Assembly (NCBI GenBank): GCA_024276075.1
Contig: JAJRXX010000016.1
Coordinates: 1-64,000 of the forward strand
Source of the DNA: Planctomycetota bacterium
Lineage (GTDB): Bacteria > Planctomycetota > Phycisphaerae > Phycisphaerales > Phycisphaeraceae
DNA length: 64,000 bases
Direction: 5' to 3'
Below, piece after piece: positions 2-61,149 of the stretch. A program made the position numbers and the translations under genes. Below the pieces are notes generated by a model. It searched no databases and was not told where the DNA came from. It saw nothing but the letters and a program-made list of their open reading frames with translations. Numbering within the stretch: the stretch's first letter is position 1; every line of letters starts with the position of its first letter.

Positions 2-550
2 ACACTCGTCGATGCAACGATCATCGAGGCGCCCAAGGGTCGCCCCCGGAAACAGGACAACGGGCTAAGCCACACGAAGGACCAAGCGGCCAGTTACACG
101 AAGAAGCACGGGCGGACCTATCACGGCTACAAGGCGCACATTGCTACGGATACGCATGGCGTGATCACCGATTATGTGTTTGATACCGCCAAAGTGCATG
201 ACTCGACGCATATCGATCAACTTGTGGAAGGTGAATCGAAAGCGGTGTATGCCGACAGTGCTTATATGGATAAGTCTCGCAAGGCACGGCTCGAATCCGA
301 GGGTGTGTTTTGCGGGATCATCGAGCGTCGTGTGCGGGGCCAGGATGAATTGACGCCCCAGCAGGTCCGTCATAACCGGTTATGCGCGTCGGTGCGAGCG
401 ATCGTGGAGCACCCGTTTGCGTGGATGAAGAACATGGGCTACCGGTTTGTGCGCTACCGAGGATTAACCCGCAACGGCTTGGACTTCGCGTTGATGGCGG
501 TGGCGTACAATTTCAAAAGGAGCTTGAGCTTGGCCAGACCGGCGGCCTGA
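2..550 (+). CDS. IS5-family transposase, 3' part (5' end outside window)
   Basis: This is the C-terminal catalytic part of a DDE transposase that cuts and pastes its own insertion sequence. The reading frame is open from base 2, so the gene begins before the window. The catalytic triad of the IS5 family is visible: first Asp in LVDATIIEAP, second Asp in VYADSAYMD, Glu in IVEHPFAWMK. The stretch KKHGRTYHGYKAH is the usual basic motif between the first two acids. The frame ends cleanly at the stop with no frameshift, so the copy may be functional, but the N-terminal part cannot be seen. The product would act on its own terminal repeats. Whether it also moves the short elements of this window is unknown. 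Confidence 0.9.
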   Translation, partial: TLVDATIIEAPKGRPRKQDNGLSHTKDQAASYTKKHGRTYHGYKAHIATDTHGVITDYVFDTAKVHDSTHIDQLVEGESKAVYADSAYMDKSRKARLESEGVFCGIIERRVRGQDELTPQQVRHNRLCASVRAIVEHPFAWMKNMGYRFVRYRGLTRNGLDFALMAVAYNFKRSLSLARPAA

Positions 551-4403: not shown

Positions 4404-4650
4404 CGCATCTCCCCCGAAGACCACAGCCGCTGGAGCGTTTTCAACGCATCTGTAGCGTTTGATTACAACAAATTGCCCGCTCCCTCACGGTCGCGGCTCG
4501 TTGTGGACGCTACACGTGGATTGAAAACGCTCTGAGCGACCGCGCGGCGGGCTGTGGCCTTACCCTATTTATTCGAGTCGGAGGTGCCGGCATCCTCACC
4601 TGATGGTCGTGCCACAGCCAAAGATAGGCCCAAAATCTGCCGTATAACCG
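4404..4650. other. intergenic region with a MITE-like element and a long-loop hairpin
   Basis: The region lies between the start of the membrane protein gene and the stop of rlmN and holds no gene. It contains the 98-bp terminal-repeat element at 4434-4531, and further right the inverted pair GGCTGTGGC (4551-4559) and GCCACAGCC (4611-4619), which could form a stem with a roughly 50-base loop downstream of rlmN. Confidence 0.5.
4434..4531. repeat. MITE-like element, family A copy 1
   Basis: 98 bp bounded by a perfect 11-bp inverted repeat, AGCGTTTTCAA (4434-4444) and TTGAAAACGCT (4521-4531). The flanking tetramers are CTGG (left) and CTGA (right), which resemble the CTAG flanks of other copies with changes. 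The inside carries the core CGCTCCCTCACGGTCGCGG, the minus-strand form of the GAGCCGCGACCGT core found in other repeats. Too short to encode a protein. Confidence 0.8.
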
Positions 4651-6901: not shown

Positions 6902-6962
6902 ACGTAGTGCGGAATTGATTACTGTTTCGAGACCACTACACCTGCGACCCAATCCAAACACT

Positions 6963-8279
6963 ATGAAACCTCGCTTGTTAATCATCTTGTTTTTTGCCGG
7001 AGCCTTGGGGGGGCTGTTCCTGATCGGTATCGTGCGCAGACCCGGGCCGAGTACGGATGCTGATTCGGCGACACATGCTGTACCGGTGAGCGTGACTCGT
7101 TTAACGCGGCAGGCCCACACGCTGACCGAGACGTTTTACGGCTTGATTGAGGCCAACGCGCGGGTGGATATGGCGTTTCAGATCAGCGGTCGTCTGCATC
7201 TTCTGGGTAGGAACGAGAATGAGCCGATCGTCGAGAATCAGGGGGTGGACAAGGGCCAAATCCTCGCTCGGCTCGAGCCGCTGCGCTACGAGGCGGCGGT
7301 GGAGCAGGCGCACGCGTCGATGCAGGGCGCCAAGGCCCGCATGGCCACCGCGTCGGCGGATGTTGCGCAAACTCAGGCACAACTCGACGACGCCAAATCG
7401 GAACTGCGGTTGCTGGAGCAATTACTAGATCGGAATGCCACGACTCCACGCGAGATCGAAAGAGCCCAGATGCGCGTCAAGGTCGCCGAAGCCCAGTTCG
7501 ACGCGGCGGACGCTGCGATTGCATCGACCGCAGCCAACTACGCCGCCGCCCGCGCCGCGACGACCATGGCTAAGGTCGATCTGGATGACACCACGCTGTA
7601 CGCACCGATGGACGCGACGGTGGCCGCCATCCCGGGCGAGATCGGTCAAATGGTCAGTCCCGGCGAGCCGATCGTCACGCTGGTCGACCTGGGCACGGTC
7701 AAGCTCGTGGTCGGCGTGGTTGAGCGAAAGGTCCCGCTGCTGAAACAGGGTCAGCGTGTGGCTGTTGATGTCCTCGCGCTGACGTCGCACGGTGGTGCCC
7801 TACCCGATGGTGACGCCTCCCGACACCCGCGCCAAGGCACCGTGGCTGTGGTACCCCCTGCTGCCGACCGCACCAGCGGGCTGTTTAACGTCGAGATCAT
7901 GCTCCCGAACGAGGGCCACGCGTTGCTGCCGGGTATGGTCGGCAAGGCGACGGTCACTGTGATGGAGCGACAATCAATCGCCATCCCCGCGTCGGTGTGT
8001 ACGCGCGTGGGCAATCGTGTTTATGCGTTCTTTGTCGAGTCGAATTCGGCTTCGCGCAGCGGTGATGCCCCGGCTGCCCTGGCCACAGGTCGTTTCGTGG
8101 CGAAGCGGGTGTGGTTTCAGCCAATCGCTATTGACAAAGACCATTACCTGGTGAGCGACGTGCCCGAGGGATTGGACCGATTGATCGTCGAGGGTTACTC
8201 CCGGCTCAAAGACGGGCAGGCGGTGCGGGTCGTTGACAAACTAGTTACGACACCCGTGCCCGTTGCCGAGGGCGGCTAG
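6963..8279 (+). CDS. RND efflux periplasmic adaptor (membrane fusion protein)
   Basis: A 438-aa adaptor that links an inner-membrane RND pump to an outer-membrane channel. The chosen ATG (MKPRLLIILFFAGALGG) begins a single N-terminal membrane anchor; a TTG 16 codons earlier is less likely. The order is anchor, barrel-sandwich/lipoyl half (FQISGRL...VDKGQILARLEP), a long alpha-helical coiled-coil hairpin (about residues 125-220, rich in Ala, Gln and Glu), second lipoyl half (TTLYAPMDATVAAIPGEIGQM) and beta-barrel domain. It pairs with the RND pump that begins 140 bases downstream. Its TAG stop is also the edge of a MITE-like element (8280-8378) that separates the two partners. No outer-membrane factor gene is adjacent. 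Substrate unknown. Confidence 0.92.
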   Translation: MKPRLLIILFFAGALGGLFLIGIVRRPGPSTDADSATHAVPVSVTRLTRQAHTLTETFYGLIEANARVDMAFQISGRLHLLGRNENEPIVENQGVDKGQILARLEPLRYEAAVEQAHASMQGAKARMATASADVAQTQAQLDDAKSELRLLEQLLDRNATTPREIERAQMRVKVAEAQFDAADAAIASTAANYAAARAATTMAKVDLDDTTLYAPMDATVAAIPGEIGQMVSPGEPIVTLVDLGTVKLVVGVVERKVPLLKQGQRVAVDVLALTSHGGALPDGDASRHPRQGTVAVVPPAADRTSGLFNVEIMLPNEGHALLPGMVGKATVTVMERQSIAIPASVCTRVGNRVYAFFVESNSASRSGDAPAALATGRFVAKRVWFQPIAIDKDHYLVSDVPEGLDRLIVEGYSRLKDGQAVRVVDKLVTTPVPVAEGG

Positions 8280-8378
8280 AGCATTTTTCGTTGTGGTGTA
8301 GCGGTTACATACGAGCTGTGACCGTGAGGGAGTGAGCTGTTTGATGTCGCCGTATGCTACAGGTTTTTGAAAAATGCT
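8280..8378. repeat. MITE-like element, family A copy 2, inside an efflux operon
   Basis: 99 bp with perfect terminal repeats AGCATTTTTC (8280-8289) and GAAAAATGCT (8369-8378). The left flank is CTAG (8276-8279), whose TAG is the stop codon of the adaptor gene; the right flank is CTGG, one base different. The inside holds a decayed core, GAGCTGTGACCGTGAGGGAG. It sits between two genes that should be co-transcribed, so its hairpin is probably in the mRNA. Confidence 0.85.
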
Positions 8379-8418
8379 CTGGCGACGGACCTGGTTTTAC
8401 ACTAGCTGATAATAACCC

Positions 8419-11400
8419 ATGCGGATCGCTGAACGTGCCATCGAGTTGCCCCGATTGGTCTTGCTGGCCACGGCGTCGATCTGCGCCCTGGGCGTCGCGG
8501 GCATTTTGACTTCGCCCAAGGAGCGCACGCCCCGCATCAAGCTGCCCGTGATCATGGTCGCTGTGCCCAACCCCGGTGCCACGCCGCCCACCAATGAGAA
8601 TGAAATCGTCAACCGCGTCGAGGAAGAGGTCGAAGGGGCACTGGATCACCTCAAGGAATCCGGTGCCATCCGGACGCAAGCGGTCAACGGCGCTGCGGTC
8701 ATGGCGTTCGTCTTCGACGAGTACATCCCCGTCAGTGAGGCCAAACGCGACGTCGAGAGCCTGATTAACCGCGTCAAGGGCAGGTTCCCGCTCGAAGCGC
8801 AGCAGGACCCCGGACCGATCGTCAACGACATCGCCTTCGAGGACTTCCCCATCATCCAGGTGATCGTGGCGGGCGGCGCCGGTGGGCGACACCGACGCGA
8901 CATCGCCGACCAGCTCGAACGGCAAATCGAAAAGGTCCCCGGCGTGGCGGCTGTGGACACGTTCGGCGGTCTGGAGCGCGAGGTACAAATTGAATTAAAC
9001 CCGCACCTCATGACACTCTACGGCTTCGACTATGGAGAGATCGCCACCGCCATCCGCCGTGCCAACGTCGACGCGCCGTCGGGCTCAATCGAATCGACCA
9101 CCGGGTCAGAACGCCGTGTACGCAGCGATACGAAGCTGCCGAGTCTGGCCGCCATCGGCGAGGTGCCTCTAGGCGTACGTGACGGCAAGCCCATCGTGCT
9201 CAACGACCTTGCAAACGTCCACATGGGACACGAACCATTAAAAAGCCTTGCGCGATACGACGGGCAAGACGCGGTCGTCTTGCTGGTGCGAGCCAAGACC
9301 GATATCGACGTGCTCGCCACCGTCCGGACAATTGAGTTAATCGTCAATGACTTCGCCGCTTCCATGAAACGGGGCTGGGCGGGTGAAACCGACAACAACG
9401 ACGCCGGCATCCGCGTCGGCACTGTCCGGTCACAGGCGCGTGAAATCGGGTACATGATTAACCAACTCACAACCAGCGCCGGCTACGGATTGGTGCTGGT
9501 CATGGCCACCCTCTGGATCAGTCTCGGTTGGCGCAACGCGAGCATCATCAGCGTCGCCATTCCGTTCGCCATCCTCGGCACCGCGGCGATCGGGTGGTTC
9601 ACGCGTCAGACCATCACGCAAGACTTGACGATCAACAACATGACCCTATTCGGGATGATCCTGGTCGTGGGCATGGTGGTCGATGGGTGCATCATCGTGG
9701 GCGAAAACATCTACCGACACCGCGAGCTGGGCAGGTACCCTGTCGATGCTGCCAAGCGGGGCATCAGTGAGGTGGGTAGCTCGTTGCTCTGCGCGTATCT
9801 GACGACATTTGCCGCATTCGGCCCGATGTTCCTGCTGCACGGCGTGATGGGCCAGTTCATGGGGCAGTTGCCGGTCGTGGTGCTATTCGCGCTGTGTTCA
9901 GCCATGATCGTCGACCACTTTCTGCTGCCCGTACTCAGTGTGTATCTGATGAAAGTGCCTGCCCACCGTCAAGCGGCCATTGCGCGGTCCGCCCAAACCC
10001 AACGCGCCGACATGGACCCGCACGAAATCGAGATCGCCAATGCCAAGGCTGTGGCCCAAGCATCACGCACAAAGCAGGTCTACGGCAGTATGCTCGGCTA
10101 CGCGCTGCGACACCGGCTGATGGTCCTGGCGCTGAGCGTCGCGGTGGTTGCCACGCCCATCGGGCTGTTCATGGTCGGTGCGATTGGCTTGGAATTTTTC
10201 CCGGACACTGACGTCCCGATCGTCGAGGTCTATTTCGAGCTGCCGCTGGGGTCGTCCATGGAACACCGCACAGCACACGTAGCGAAACGGATCGAACAGG
10301 CAGTGCTCGCTGCGGTGCGTCCCGGTGAGTGGCACCAGCAGCCGGACGGTCAGCGATCACGACCCGTGACGACCATCGGTGAGCCGGGTGCGCTCAATAC
10401 CAACCTCGACAACGAACAAGGCGCCGGGCCTGAGTTCGGCATGGTCTACGTCGAGCTTGTGCTCGCTGGGGAACGCGAACGATCGGCGTCACAAATCCGA
10501 CACGCAATTGTCCAGACCATGCCCCCCATGCCCGGGGTGCTCGTGCGGGTCAAATCACCCTCGGACGGGCCGCCTGCCGGCGCACCCGTGCTGGTGCGCG
10601 TCATGGCACGCAAGGGCACCGACGCTACGCTCAATGAACTGGCACAGCGTGCCTGGCGCGTCTTTGAACTGCTCAAAAAAATACCCGGCACATTCGACGT
10701 CACGAACGACTACCGGCTGCGCCCTGAATTCGTCGTCAAACCAAACCGCGCGGTGGCGAGCCTGTTCGACATCGACGCTCAGCAAATCGCCCAGAGCGTT
10801 AATTTCGCACTCGAAGGCGTGCAGGTCACAGAGGTCAACTTCGGCGGGACAGACCCGATTGACGTGCGCATGCGAAACCAAGCCACGCACCGCGATCAAC
10901 TTGAAGACCTCACCAACCTGCCCCTGCGCAGCCCCACGGGAAAAATTGTCTCACTTGAACAAGTCGCCCAGATCGACCGCGTACGCTCGGCGAACGTGAT
11001 CCGGCACTACGAGCAGCAGCGCGTGATCAACATCCGTGCCCAACTCGACGAAGGCGTGCTGGCAGACGACGTGAAAGACGCACTGGCCACGGCGCTGGCC
11101 GGGTCGGAGCCACGCACGCTGCGACGCGATCAGGATGTGATCTGGTCCGACGACCGGACCGTGATCGAGTTCGGTGGGGAAAACGAGGAACGCGATACCG
11201 CGCTAGAGGACCTGCACATCGCACTGCTCGTGGCGGTCGCGGCGATGATGATCATCCTGACGATCAAGTTCAACAGCTTCATCCAGCCGTTGATTATCTT
11301 GTTTAGCGTGCCGATGAGCCTGGTGGGTGTGTCGATCGGGCTGATGATCTGCGGGTTCTACTTTTCGATCTCAGCGATGATCGGTGTCGTCGCATTGTCG

Positions 11401-28798: not shown

Positions 28799-28900
28799 TA
28801 CCCCCTCTTCCTCGCAGGGAGAGGGCAGGGGTGAGGGTCAAGTCAACTGCAACCAAAAGTCGTGTATCTGGGCGATACACGTGGATTGGGAATGCTCTAG
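28799..28900. repeat. CCCTC-type repeat fragment joined to a family A right end (copy 4)
   Basis: 28799-28853 matches the complement of the repeat at 16224-16275 (GGGTGAGGGTCAAGTCAACTGCAACC). 28860-28896 is the right part of a family A element: a perfect hairpin CGTGTATC-TGGG-GATACACG followed by GTGGATTGGGAATGCT, as in copy 1. The flank CTAG (28897-28900) contains the minus-strand TAG stop of the adk-like gene. The left terminal repeat is missing. Confidence 0.65.
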
Positions 28901-29514
28901 CCTTCGTATGCGGAGAAGTGCTGATTCTGGATGGGTGCGACAATATCGAGCAGATCGCGTAGCACCAGTGCCGGCGAGCCGACCGAGTTGATCTCGATAG
29001 TCATGTCCGATGGGTAGTGGTCGAGGACGGGGCGCGTTTGAGCTTCATAAACCGACCAGCGGTGGCGGATAACTTTTTCGTCGGCGTCGTCGAAGCGGTT
29101 TTCCTTTAACGCCCGGCGGCGTAGACGCTCGAACATCGCCTTCTGGTCGTCGCAGATCAGGTGGATGACTTTAATGACCTCGATGTGCGCATCGAGCATC
29201 TGAGCCTGCTCCACGGTGCGGGGTATTCCGTCGAGGATGAGCAGGTCGTGCCGCGGTTTGTATTCGTGCAGGATGCAGTGTGCGTGGATCGTCTCGGTCC
29301 ACATCTTGACCGTGACCTCGTCGGGGACCAACTCACCACGCGAGCTATATTCATAGAAAATCTTGCCCAGGTCGCTGGAGATGTCGATCTGGCGGAACAT
29401 GTCGCCGGTGGCGAAATGGAAGAACCCCGGTATGGTCCCCAATATCTTGCCCTGGGTGCCTTTTACGACGCCCGGAGCACCGAACAATAAAACGGTCTTG
29501 TATCGGGATGGCAT
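28897..29514 (-). CDS. adenylate kinase-like nucleoside monophosphate kinase with altered P-loop
   Basis: 205 aa. Overall pattern of adenylate kinase: P-loop region LLFGAPGVVKGTQGK, AMP-site FFHFATGDMFR, LDGIPRTVEQAQML and the short LID (NRFDDADEKVIRHRWSVYEAQTRPVLDHYP). The P-loop should read GAPGxGKGTQ; here the Gly before the Lys is Val (codon GTA), which is unexpected because that Gly contacts ATP. FPRT is IPRT. It may be a second, divergent family member rather than the essential adk, or a nucleotide kinase of other specificity. Its stop codon overlaps the family A repeat. Confidence 0.8.
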   Translation of the reverse strand: MPSRYKTVLLFGAPGVVKGTQGKILGTIPGFFHFATGDMFRQIDISSDLGKIFYEYSSRGELVPDEVTVKMWTETIHAHCILHEYKPRHDLLILDGIPRTVEQAQMLDAHIEVIKVIHLICDDQKAMFERLRRRALKENRFDDADEKVIRHRWSVYEAQTRPVLDHYPSDMTIEINSVGSPALVLRDLLDIVAPIQNQHFSAYEG

Positions 29515-37642: not shown

Positions 37643-38698
37643 ATGAAAGTTCTTGTCGTCGATGATTCCGCTTTCATGCGTCGCGCCGTGTCACAGATGC
37701 TCGCCAGCGATCCGCAAATCGAGGTGGTCGGCACGGCGAAGAACGGCAGGGAAGGGCTGGAGATGGCGAAGAAGCTCAGCCCCGACGTGATTACCCTCGA
37801 TATCGAGATGCCCGAAATGGACGGGCTGACGGCGTTGCGGCGGATTATGCAAGAGTGCCCGACACAGGTGTTGATGCTCAGTTCGCTGACCACGGAAGGC
37901 TCGCACGCGGCGTTGCAGGCGCTGAAGCTGGGGGCGGCCGACGTGTTGGCTAAAGACGTTTCGCAGGTATCGCTTTCAATTACCAATATTAAAGACGATC
38001 TGCTCACACGTGTGCGTGCGATCGGGGCTGCGGGTAAGCGTCGTCCGACTCGTCCGACGAGCGAGGGTTCATCCAGCGCTCAACCGCCAAAGTATCGGCC
38101 CGGTCAATTCGACGTGATCTGTATCGGCTCTAGCACCGGCGGGCCTCCCGTCCTTGAAAAGATACTCGCCGCCTTGCCCGATACGTTAACCACGCCCGTC
38201 GTCGTGGCGCAGCACATGCCGGAGGTGTTTACCAAGTCCATGAGCGAACGTTTGGGGGCAGAGTGTCAGCTACGTGTGGTTCACGCTGAAAACCACATGC
38301 CTATGGAGTCTCGCACCATCTACATCGCACCCGGTGGGCATCACATACATCTTAATAAAATGGGCCTGGCGCGTTGGGAACTGTTGGTAAACAAAGAGCC
38401 TTTCGAAGCGCTCTACAAGCCCAGCGTGGACGCGTTGTTTCATTCAGCGGCCAAGTACACCGGTTCACGCACGTTGGCGGTGGTACTGACGGGTATCGGC
38501 CACGACGGGCTGGAAGGTGGGCGGGCGCTGCACGCGCGTAACGGCGTGATCCTCGCGCAGAATGAAGAGACGTGCGTGGTATACGGCATGCCCAAAGCGG
38601 TTACGGAAAACGCCTTGATCGCCGCCAGCCTAAACCCCGATCAGATCGCTGTGTCACTGCAGTCTCTTGCAGCGGCTCCTGCTGCGCGGGCGGGCTAG
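37643..38698 (+). CDS. cheB: receptor methylesterase CheB
   Basis: 351 aa, receiver plus methylesterase. Receiver Asp53 (VITLDIEMPEMDG). The esterase domain has CIGSSTGGPPVLEKIL (catalytic Ser), VAQHMPEVFTKSMSERL (His) and LTGIGHDGLEGG (Asp). It removes methyl groups from receptors when phosphorylated by CheA. ATG follows AGGAG by 10 bases and lies 24 bases after fapA. The TAG stop is part of a CTAG that also borders a MITE-like element (38699-38796). Confidence 0.97.
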   Translation: MKVLVVDDSAFMRRAVSQMLASDPQIEVVGTAKNGREGLEMAKKLSPDVITLDIEMPEMDGLTALRRIMQECPTQVLMLSSLTTEGSHAALQALKLGAADVLAKDVSQVSLSITNIKDDLLTRVRAIGAAGKRRPTRPTSEGSSSAQPPKYRPGQFDVICIGSSTGGPPVLEKILAALPDTLTTPVVVAQHMPEVFTKSMSERLGAECQLRVVHAENHMPMESRTIYIAPGGHHIHLNKMGLARWELLVNKEPFEALYKPSVDALFHSAAKYTGSRTLAVVLTGIGHDGLEGGRALHARNGVILAQNEETCVVYGMPKAVTENALIAASLNPDQIAVSLQSLAAAPAARAG

Positions 38699-38796
38699 AG
38701 TGTTATCAATTCACAGGTAGCGTCCACAACGAGCCGCGACCGTTAAGAAGCGGGTGGGTTTATCATCGCAAACGATATGCCTGAAGTGAAAAGACT
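38699..38796. repeat. MITE-like element, family A copy 3
   Basis: 98 bp. Terminal repeats AGTGTTATCA (38699-38708) and TGAAAAGACT (38787-38796) match at 8 of 10 bases. Both flanks are CTAG: 38695-38698, containing the cheB stop, and 38797-38800. The inside has the common core in plus orientation, AACGAGCCGCGACCGTTAAG. Directly followed by the family E element. Confidence 0.88.
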
Positions 38797-38800
38797 CTAG

Positions 38801-38928
38801 AACCTGTTTCAAACCCCCTCTCCCCTTGAGGGGAGAGGTTGGGTGAGGGGTGAAAGCTCCGCAAATCATGGGTACACAACCCTCCCCCTACCCCCTCCCT
38901 GACAGGGAGGGGAGTTATGAAACCAGTT
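38801..38928. repeat. MITE-like element, family E copy 1
   Basis: 128 bp between CTAG 38797-38800 and CTAG 38929-38932. Terminal repeats AACCTGTTTCA and TGAAACCAGTT match at 9 of 11 bases. The inside is alternating pyrimidine and purine blocks (CCCCCTCTCCCC, GGGTGAGGGG, CCCTCCCTGACAGGGAGGG) able to form stems. The right CTAG gives the TAG stop of the minus-strand AsmA-like gene. Nearly identical to copy 2 at 41106-41231. Confidence 0.88.
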
Positions 38929-39774
38929 CTAGTTCTTCTTCTCTTCTTTTTGGGGGCCTATCTGAAACCCTTTGAGGACGTTTTCTAGCCCTTGGCCTAG
39001 TTCTTCCGCAGCCTGTTCGATGGCTTCGCCGACTTCTTCCGCTTGTTTGCCCAGTTTGTTTAGGTTTTGCAAGCCTGAGTCGACGCCTTGGGTGATCGTG
39101 TTTGGGAGTAGGTCCCCTGCTTTCTTGGTGACGGCAGAGAGCAAGGCTTCGACCAGCGTCCCGCTTAGCTGCGCGACCAGCGATCCGGTTCCTGTATTAG
39201 AGCCGACGTCTTTCAAGTGGATCTCTGGGACGTCGATTGTAATACTCGAAAGCTCGCCGCCCAGCGGGATCACCTCTGCGTGCACCGTGATATCGCGGAT
39301 CAACAGATCATGGATGATGATTGTCTTACCGCTTTCCTGTGAGTCGTCTTGGGGGGGTTCGGATGGCTGCTGCTGGGGTTCCTTGGCGCTCAGGTTTTCC
39401 AGGATAACGTTGTAGTTGCCTTTCCCGTTATTTTTCTCCAGCGTGAGTTCGATGCCGGTTAGCGTCAGGTTGGGGATGACGACTTCATCTTGCGTGAGCG
39501 ATCGTAGCGAAATGGATACCTCTCCATCCGCCAGCTTTAGAAACGAGGCGCTCCTAAACCCTTCCGGGTTAGCGATGTTCAGGCCCTGCATGGCGAACCG
39601 TCCGGAGAAGACCCCGACGTCTGCCTCGTCGAGTTGGGTCGTTACACCCAGCGCGGTTGTAGCCCCGATCTCGATCCCTACCTTGGTGATCCAATCGATA
39701 CAGATCAGCCCGATGACGATCACCACCGCCACCGCAGCGACGGCAATCAAGAGTATTTTTTTGAGTTTCTTCAT
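38929..39774 (-). CDS. AsmA-like membrane-anchored protein
   Basis: 281 aa from the ATG at 39774. A single N-terminal anchor (MKKLKKILLIAVAAVAVVIVIGLICI) is followed by GVTTQLDEADVGVFSGRFAMQGLNIANPEGF, the short beta segment typical of AsmA/TamB-like proteins, then more amphipathic beta strands and an acidic, Gln/Pro-rich insert (about 155-175). The C-terminal 60 residues are helical (LGKQAEEVGEAIEQAAEELGQGLENVLKGF). It probably sits in the periplasm, anchored to the inner membrane. Function unknown; outer-membrane lipid homeostasis is a family-based guess. Its TAG stop is within the CTAG at the edge of the family E element. Confidence 0.78.
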   Translation of the reverse strand: MKKLKKILLIAVAAVAVVIVIGLICIDWITKVGIEIGATTALGVTTQLDEADVGVFSGRFAMQGLNIANPEGFRSASFLKLADGEVSISLRSLTQDEVVIPNLTLTGIELTLEKNNGKGNYNVILENLSAKEPQQQPSEPPQDDSQESGKTIIIHDLLIRDITVHAEVIPLGGELSSITIDVPEIHLKDVGSNTGTGSLVAQLSGTLVEALLSAVTKKAGDLLPNTITQGVDSGLQNLNKLGKQAEEVGEAIEQAAEELGQGLENVLKGFQIGPQKEEKKN

Positions 39775-54873: not shown

Positions 54874-54956
54874 AGCGGTTTGGGAATCGATGCGGCGACG
54901 ATAGCGGTCGGTGTGGTTGGGCGGTTTCAGAACAAGTCTTGTCGTATCCGACGAGT

Positions 54957-56075
54957 ATGAAGAAGGCATTTTTAACAAACGTTGTTAGCCCGAGCTTCGT
55001 CGTGGTGTGTGTTCTGCTTGTCATGCACAGTCCACTGACTGCTTGGGCCGACGAGGTTGAGTTGGTCACGGGAGAGGTCTTACGTGGCCGAGTGGTGCAG
55101 CAGACGCCGCAACGTGTGATCTTGGAACACCCGGTGCTGGGTCGGGTTGAGCTTGGCGTGGATCAAATCCGTGACGTCCGTCTGTACCAAGACGAGGCGG
55201 GCGTCGGTCACGAGAGCGAACACTTGGCCGAAATGGGCGAGCAAGGCACGCGCGATGAAAGTGTCATCCAGCAGACGCCGTCAATCGATGCTGTTTCAAA
55301 AGATGATGTATCGCAGCAACCAGCAGAGGGTTCGCCATCCACGGGCGTCGATACCGATACACTGCCCATGACGCAGGCAAATCAGCAGCAAAACCAACAG
55401 GACGAGCAGCACGACGACCACGAGGATTGGTGGGCACGGTTCGATGTGGGTTTTAACGGCACGGAAGGCAACACCCGCACAGCCAATCTTCGCTTGGGAT
55501 TCGTGGCGGAAAAACGCACGCGCGAAGACCGATTCAAATTCGACGCGGCGTTATTCAATGCGACCGATCGTGGTCGAAAGACGCGAAACGAGTTTACGGT
55601 TGGGTCCATCGTCGATTGGCTCGAGCCCGAGTCGCCTTGGTTTAGGTTTATGCAGGGCCGATTCGACTTCGACGAATTCGCGTCATGGGAAGAGCGTATC
55701 AGCGGTAGTGCAGGCGTCGGCTATCAGCTCTACGACACCCCAGACTTCGGTGCTGTCGTCCGCGTCGGCTTGGGTGGTGCGAAGGAATTCGGATCGGTCA
55801 ATGAGGACTTTCGATCCGAGGCTTCATTCGGGTTTGAGTTCACATGGCAGATCAACGACCGGATGCACCTGACGGCTGCAACCACGATCTACCCCGATCT
55901 GACCGAGACCGGTGAGCTGCGCGTCAACGCAACGGGCGACTGGATCATCGACATCGATGAAGCGAAAGACATACAGCTCAAGCTGGGCATCCAAAACGAG
56001 TACGAATCAGATGCCGACCCCGGCGTCAAGAAAAACGACTTGAAATACTACGGTGCCTTGGTGTTCAACTTTTAG
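54957..56075 (+). CDS. DUF481-domain outer-membrane protein
   Basis: 372 aa from the ATG at 54957. Signal peptide (KKAFLTNVVSPSFVVVCVLLVMHSPLTAWA, cleaved before DEVEL). Then a small SH3-like strand set (VELVTGEVLRGRVVQQTPQRVILEHPVLGRVEL), a Gln/Asp-rich linker (about 120-155), and a DUF481 beta barrel (RFDVGFNGTEGNTRTANLRLGFVAEKRT...) that ends in Phe (YYGALVFNF). Similar proteins (YdiY) are induced by salt or acid in enterobacteria; function unknown. The TAG stop lies in TTAG that precedes a family A terminal repeat. Confidence 0.88.
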   Translation: MKKAFLTNVVSPSFVVVCVLLVMHSPLTAWADEVELVTGEVLRGRVVQQTPQRVILEHPVLGRVELGVDQIRDVRLYQDEAGVGHESEHLAEMGEQGTRDESVIQQTPSIDAVSKDDVSQQPAEGSPSTGVDTDTLPMTQANQQQNQQDEQHDDHEDWWARFDVGFNGTEGNTRTANLRLGFVAEKRTREDRFKFDAALFNATDRGRKTRNEFTVGSIVDWLEPESPWFRFMQGRFDFDEFASWEERISGSAGVGYQLYDTPDFGAVVRVGLGGAKEFGSVNEDFRSEASFGFEFTWQINDRMHLTAATTIYPDLTETGELRVNATGDWIIDIDEAKDIQLKLGIQNEYESDADPGVKKNDLKYYGALVFNF

Positions 56076-56190
56076 AGCGTTTTTCAGTTTCGTATACGGC
56101 AGTACGGCTTGACGATCGATACTCTCTTTCATGCGCGACCGTCAGTGAGTGGGCTTCTTTGCTGTGATTGAAGTACGAGAATTAATCAGA
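56076..56190. repeat. family A element, copy 5 (right end decayed)
   Basis: AGCGTTTTTCAGTTTCGTAT (from 56076) is a good left terminal repeat, directly after the TTAG that contains the DUF481 stop. A partial common core (GCGCGACCGTCAGTGAGTGGG) lies at about 56136-56156. No right repeat is recognisable before the rho stop at 56201. Confidence 0.65.
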
Positions 56191-61025: not shown

Positions 61026-61035
61026 ACCCAATTAG

Positions 61036-61134
61036 AGCACCTTGCATAAATAATCGCCATGTCAGTTCTGGAGTAGGGCAGGTCATTGACCTGCCTTCTT
61101 CTTGGGGAGATGGAGAATAATTACGCAAGTTGCT
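61036..61134. repeat. MITE-like element, family A-related copy 6
   Basis: 99 bp with terminal repeats AGCACCTTGCATAAATAAT and ATAATTACGCAAGTTGCT, and flanks TTAG (61032-61035) and CTAA (61135-61138), an inverted YTAR pair. Same length as other family A copies, but the inside differs and contains the palindrome GGCAGGTCATTGACCTGCC. Confidence 0.7.
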
Positions 61135-61149
61135 CTAAAAAGATGTTTT

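Follow-up and report, generated by a model that had tools for sequence, protein, structure and literature searches.

Hairpin repeats inserted at TA rebuild the TAG stop codons of the genes they adjoin in a planctomycete genome

Why should the stop codon of a gene coincide with the edge of a repeat? The 64,000-nucleotide stretch of Planctomycetota bacterium DNA analyzed here (the window) comes from a 2.88-Mb metagenome-assembled genome (MAG) of 77 contigs, and in it the TAG stops of four full-length genes (HlyD/RND adaptor, cheB, adk-like and DUF481) directly abut hairpin repeats. A previous sequence-only reading had let each element begin after the stop codon. The contact holds at all four genes, but the G of the TAG is itself the first base of the element. 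The features concerned are the following; gene calls come from a codon-usage script written for this analysis, and some short genes are uncertain. A slash marks the boundary of an element.

2-550, plus strand: transposase fragment of IS5/IS4 type (DDE_Tnp_1), truncated by the start of the contig
4433-4532, no strand assigned: intergenic family A element of e-type, 100 bp, with decayed TA flanks (CTG/TGA)
6915-8279, plus strand: HlyD/CusB-like RND adaptor gene (Pfam PF16576, PF13437), its TAG stop (8277-8279) being TA plus the element's G
8277-8278, plus strand: insertion-target TA, the first two bases of the upstream gene's TAG stop
8279-8379, plus strand: family A element, 101 bp, near-perfect hairpin, ends GAGCATTTTTC...GAAAAATGCTC
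28860-28897, minus strand: partial family A element with one end, at the adenylate-kinase-like gene's stop
28897-29514, minus strand: adenylate-kinase-like gene, TAG 28897-28899
37643-38698, plus strand: cheB, ending at an element, TAG 38696-38698
38698-38797, plus strand: family A element, 100 bp, decayed ends, flanks CTA/.../TAG
54939-56075, plus strand: DUF481 gene (PF04338, 2-210 of 210), TAG 56073-56075 at an element, domain complete to the C-terminus
56075-56190, plus strand: decayed family A element whose left end is d-type; no right end identifiable, end coordinate approximate
61035-61135, no strand assigned: family g element, 101 bp, IS630-type ends, TTA/TAA flanks, intergenic

The element at the RND adaptor gene has a near-identical copy (99%) on another contig (G000:C13:18896-18998), and its right-hand TA has decayed to TG. 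The region 8276-8382 folds at -44.8 kcal/mol (z -5.5). An Rfam search of the window returned tRNAs and nothing else.

Genome-wide counts were obtained from pattern searches and from 678 kb of stretches around copies, window included. The proposal that the repeats are MITE-like was supported. They are commoner than chance would give: YTAGAGCNNTTT ends were found 94 times in the 2.88-Mb genome, compared with 12 for the reversed control, and the two-ended pattern occurred at 8 palindromic places in the genome search, compared with none for the control. The repeats had also been taken for a single family of equal length, which they are not. Family A comprises about 80 copies of 85 to ~310 bp with a mosaic structure and ends GAGCRTTTTY; its catalogue holds 72 two-ended and 11 one-ended records, including a few chance matches (e.g. 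L059:2882 and L076:2866). Its half types (a/b, c1/c2, d1/d2, e1/e2 and h) recur on the left or right in new pairings (c1-d1 three times, a-d1 twice, and also c1-e1, a-c2 and b-d1), and the halves join near a shared core, as at L100:14701-14825, L104:2924-3048, L113:2857-2986 and L059:13201-13297. Family g, to which the copy at 61035-61135 belongs rather than to family A, comprises about 65 copies, nearly all exactly 101 bp, with ends GAGCA..TTGCRT. Exact g ends number 132 genome-wide, compared with 0 in controls; the flank catalogue of this family covers copies among the matches listed, and about 32 of the 132 ends lie outside it. Across 60 relatives, family A ends were absent save for one weak match in G050, and g-like ends were present in G016 (12), G052 (2), G005 and G042. 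Some of the G016 ends read GAGCATTTTGCATAA, intermediate between families A and g.

The core inside family A, GAGCCGCGACCGTNAGGGAGCGG, is found at window positions 8310-8340, 25997, 38740, 51021 and 58009 and in L187-L266. Outside family A, copies stand singly or form closely spaced inverted pairs, across phyla, with records in Planctomycetota including Phycisphaerae, Acidobacteria, Legionella, Anaerolineae and Gammaproteobacteria. This core resembles a REP-type repeat with an exceptionally broad range; REP/BIME repeats are high-copy short palindromes, often in inverted pairs, with an associated tyrosine transposase. A further repeat, of CCCTCTCCCCTTGAGGGGAGAGG type, lies at 38800-38948, downstream of the cheB copy; it has copies at 94-97% elsewhere in this genome and at 76-83% in G012.

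To define the target, we pooled both families and took 103 clean two-ended, non-nested copies. Their flanks read YTA/GAGC...GCTC/TAR, with TTAA at 36 sites, CTAA at 25, TTAG at 14, CTAG at 10 and others at 18. Insertion at YTAR, as previously suggested, was thus borne out in the form of a TA-centered target. The accompanying 4-bp CTAG/YTAR duplication was not: it needs the left YTAG to equal the right CTAR, which is compatible with only 10 of the 103 sites, and the flank letters Y and R vary independently (OR 0.97, p=1). The duplication is therefore 2 bp, TA, within a YTAR target, in families A and g alike, and the independent flanks refute the 4-bp CTAG duplication; the 4-bp YTAR duplication of IS5-group MITEs is not what these elements have. 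The copy at 38698 does have CTAG on both sides, and this is the C..G case of the YTA/TAR rule rather than a 4-bp duplication. CTAG scarcity as a driver of insertion was also rejected, since CTAG, which had been supposed to be rare in the coding genome, is not scarce in the window: 85 CTAG were seen where a second-order Markov model expects 91, close to expectation.

The sequence-only reading favored an IS5-group MITE: the IS5-type transposase at the start of the window would mobilize the repeats and duplicate 4 bp, YTAR. That transposase is indeed there, as the DDE_Tnp_1 fragment at 2-550, the sole DDE_Tnp_1 match in the genome. Its downstream end reads TA/GGGCTTTCTGAAAAACC; this sequence and the a/b-type family A ends have TTTCTGA in common, only one IS end being present. 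Likewise, the fragment end GGGCTTTCTGA is partly like the a/b-type ends GAGCRTTTTCTGA, and something other than an IS630 transposase may therefore drive family A. Despite this likeness, the YTAR target and the presence of a transposase fragment, we consider this IS5-group model as a whole unlikely, because left YTAG and right CTAR agree in so few sites, with Y and R independent, and because the family of the 61035 copy, which had been assigned to the IS5 group, matches an IS630 element and not the IS5 fragment.

This IS630-type element, at C45:76050, is 1.0 kb long (1013-bp), has ends GAGCAGATTGCGTGAATAATTG and GACCACCTGGCGTAAATAATTG, and carries IS630-type DDE sequence (DDE_3, E 1e-37). The g ends, GAGCACCTTGCATAAATAATCG, resemble its end GACCACCTGGCGTAAATAATTG over the terminal 22 bases, so the terminal inverted repeats of family g are common to an IS630 element of the same genome. 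On this likeness, family g would be a miniature form of a same-genome IS630-type (Tc1/mariner superfamily) transposon, presumably mobilized by an IS630-type transposase. Family A begins with the same bases as family g and follows its target rule. It was probably moved by a transposase of IS630 type or similar; neither this genome (a MAG, which may lack multicopy elements) nor the 60 relatives yielded an intact autonomous partner carrying both family A ends. A candidate autonomous copy at C39:2095-3411 (L169) was rejected, as by eye it is a g element split by an IS3-like element.

Two further IS630-type sequences were seen beside genes. One, carrying a transposase, starts directly after a TAG stop (G000:C76, L117; GGGACTAGTACCC), and the gene ending there looks by eye like a P-type ATPase. 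The other is a transposase fragment at a contig start, which adjoins a gene whose protein start is, by eye, Cas9-like (L119, G000:C68:1-1626; MSRTVLGLDLGPNSIGWALVDE).

What does insertion do to the last codon of a gene? Both ends of the elements read TA/GAGC inwards, so a TAG is rebuilt in either orientation and the protein is unchanged. The stop is the target TA plus the first G of the element, and a TAA or TAG always becomes TAG. In the 16 stop insertions that were testable by their clean TA flanks (including 3 composites with a nested g element and 2 beside short, weakly supported genes, L102 and L161), all 16 pre-insertion codons were stops, 8 TAA and 8 TAG. This matters because any in-frame TA/G gives a stop, and the elements could have inserted within genes and made new TAG stops, leaving truncated pseudogenes beside them. 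We regard this as very improbable; for the tested genes, truncation is refuted by the pre-insertion codons, which were already TAR stops, and by orthologues, whose ends fall on the same codon or no more than a few residues away. As the target preference is itself YTAR, the 16/16 count excludes truncation for these genes, yet it is not independent proof of selection.

The earlier claim that the protein end is left intact was supported, and orthologues in relatives show the unoccupied gene end. In G012, cheB ends at the same codon, GGGCTAG, without the element, and so does the adk-like orthologue (GGTTAG). End codons were also the same, with no element, in guaA of G008 and G012 and in the G012 and G004 orthologues of the L055 gene. 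Other orthologues differed at the C-terminus by a few residues, no more than such tails normally vary. These unoccupied sites are in diverged orthologues (~64-85% protein identity), whose flanks past the stop do not align. An element of 122 bp in G016 (L339:2075-2200) lies between gyrB and a convergent AraC-type gene, and both stops are TAG. In the reconstructed site, a plus-strand TAG and a minus-strand TAA share one TA; the C-terminal domains of both proteins are complete, as is the DUF481 domain in the window, which again argues against truncation. Overall, 3 of the 14 copies in related genera are at stops, one of them common to two convergent genes. The C45 IS630 element itself lies at the TAG that ends a response-regulator/HD gene.

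We used 127 non-nested noncoding insertions from one MAG, left after dropping chance matches, to compare targeting with tolerance. Stop codons received 19 of these insertions, compared with 133 of 1540 noncoding YTAR sites counted over the same stretches (8.6%; OR 1.86, p=0.024, uncorrected). The excess at stops that had been predicted is thus present relative to all noncoding YTAR sites, but disappears relative to sites 1-60 bp downstream (OR 0.92, p=0.88, uncorrected). Per-site density was 0.143 at stops. Downstream it was 0.155 over 1-60 bp, higher near the stop (1-25 bp, 0.219) than farther away (26-60 bp, 0.088), and where the nearest gene end was a 5' end it was 0.019-0.060. In called coding sequence we found at most 8 of 136 non-nested events, compared with 2320 of 3860 YTAR sites (60%). 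As the density at stops equals that of the 3' flanks, these figures indicate tolerance at 3' ends and not targeting. The 4 of 6 window copies at stops (binomial p ~0.006 at 15%, chosen after the fact) are a lucky cluster.

Active targeting of stop codons, or selection at them, for example through a hairpin that might protect the mRNA 3' end once transcribed, would also account for the excess over noncoding sites and would fit the strong hairpins and the same pattern seen in G016 and G052. Nonetheless, we find it improbable, given the equal density just downstream and a consensus scan of 8200-8460 that gave no intrinsic terminator at the 8279 copy (and no sigma-70-type promoter); the excess needs no more than the loss of insertions at 5' and coding positions.

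We therefore favor, at a probability of roughly 80%, the reading that the repeats are non-autonomous MITEs with TA duplication and stop-sparing insertion, which survive at 3' ends by selection. Such MITEs would insert at TA within YTAR, with only the TA duplicated, and an in-frame TAA or TAG starting at the target TA would be rebuilt as TAG, the protein staying the same. Selection would then remove those that fall within coding sequence or ahead of a gene. Insertions at stops and directly downstream would survive about equally, so that a proportion of genes would end exactly at an element. Gene ends coinciding with repeats can in this way be explained without invoking targeting, by a simple and checkable rule: a TA-specific repeat can enter the last codon harmlessly, since TA followed by a terminal G invariably spells TAG. 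The rule predicts that genomes with many such elements drift from TAA to TAG, and that a first base of C or T deprives an element of this stop-codon tolerance. It is quite doubtful that the terminal G beside the TA target is an evolved trait turning stop codons into a safe harbor. Were that so, G-starting ends would occupy TAA and TAG stops, even a TA common to two convergent stops, and TAA stops would be steadily converted to TAG.

Several known systems resemble the MITEs proposed here. TA duplication is a trait of IS630/Tc1/mariner elements (PMC2170065). IS630 of Shigella sonnei and ISY100 share it and have a single transposase gene. IS630, according to Tenzen and Ohtsubo 1991 as cited in PMC2170065, prefers TA within CTAG, whereas the present target is YTAR, with TTAA commonest, and the GAGC terminus allows stop rebuilding. 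ERIC/IRU/RU-1 and Correia/NEMIS are likewise small hairpin MITE-like repeats with TA at their termini (PMC2229807), although they differ in sequence from the present elements. ERIC is transcribed with neighboring genes and affects mRNA stability (PMC2229807). RU-1, inserted at the end of a gene, can abolish its stop codon so that the protein is extended (PMC2759123), the opposite of what we observe here. Nearest in kind is RUP of pneumococcus, which is ~107 bp long, has terminal inverted repeats like those of a same-genome IS630, inserts at TA and is proposed to be mobilized by IS630-Spn1 (PMC2229807, PMC3049150). Its ~110 copies are over-represented between convergent genes (PMC2229807, PMC3049150). 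Unlike that of the present elements, their density peaks 50-150 bp from genes, and stop rebuilding via a terminal G is not described in the RUP literature compared (PMC2229807, PMC3049150). In Streptococcus pneumoniae, BOX encodes the stop at the extreme 3' end of 36 genes, with no strong evidence of truncation (PMC3049150); BOX differs in its modular boxA/B/C units and its terminal inverted repeats, and its repeat-encoded stop is not described as TA plus an element G. Our literature search on such repeats in planctomycetes gave nothing beyond a REP survey mentioning the phylum, and that on insertion at stop codons nothing relevant. We found no description of the stop-sparing geometry of TA plus a terminal G in the literature searched, which is not proof of absence. 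Repeat-supplied stops are already documented in pneumococcus, and the families described here, though new, are MITEs of a known kind.
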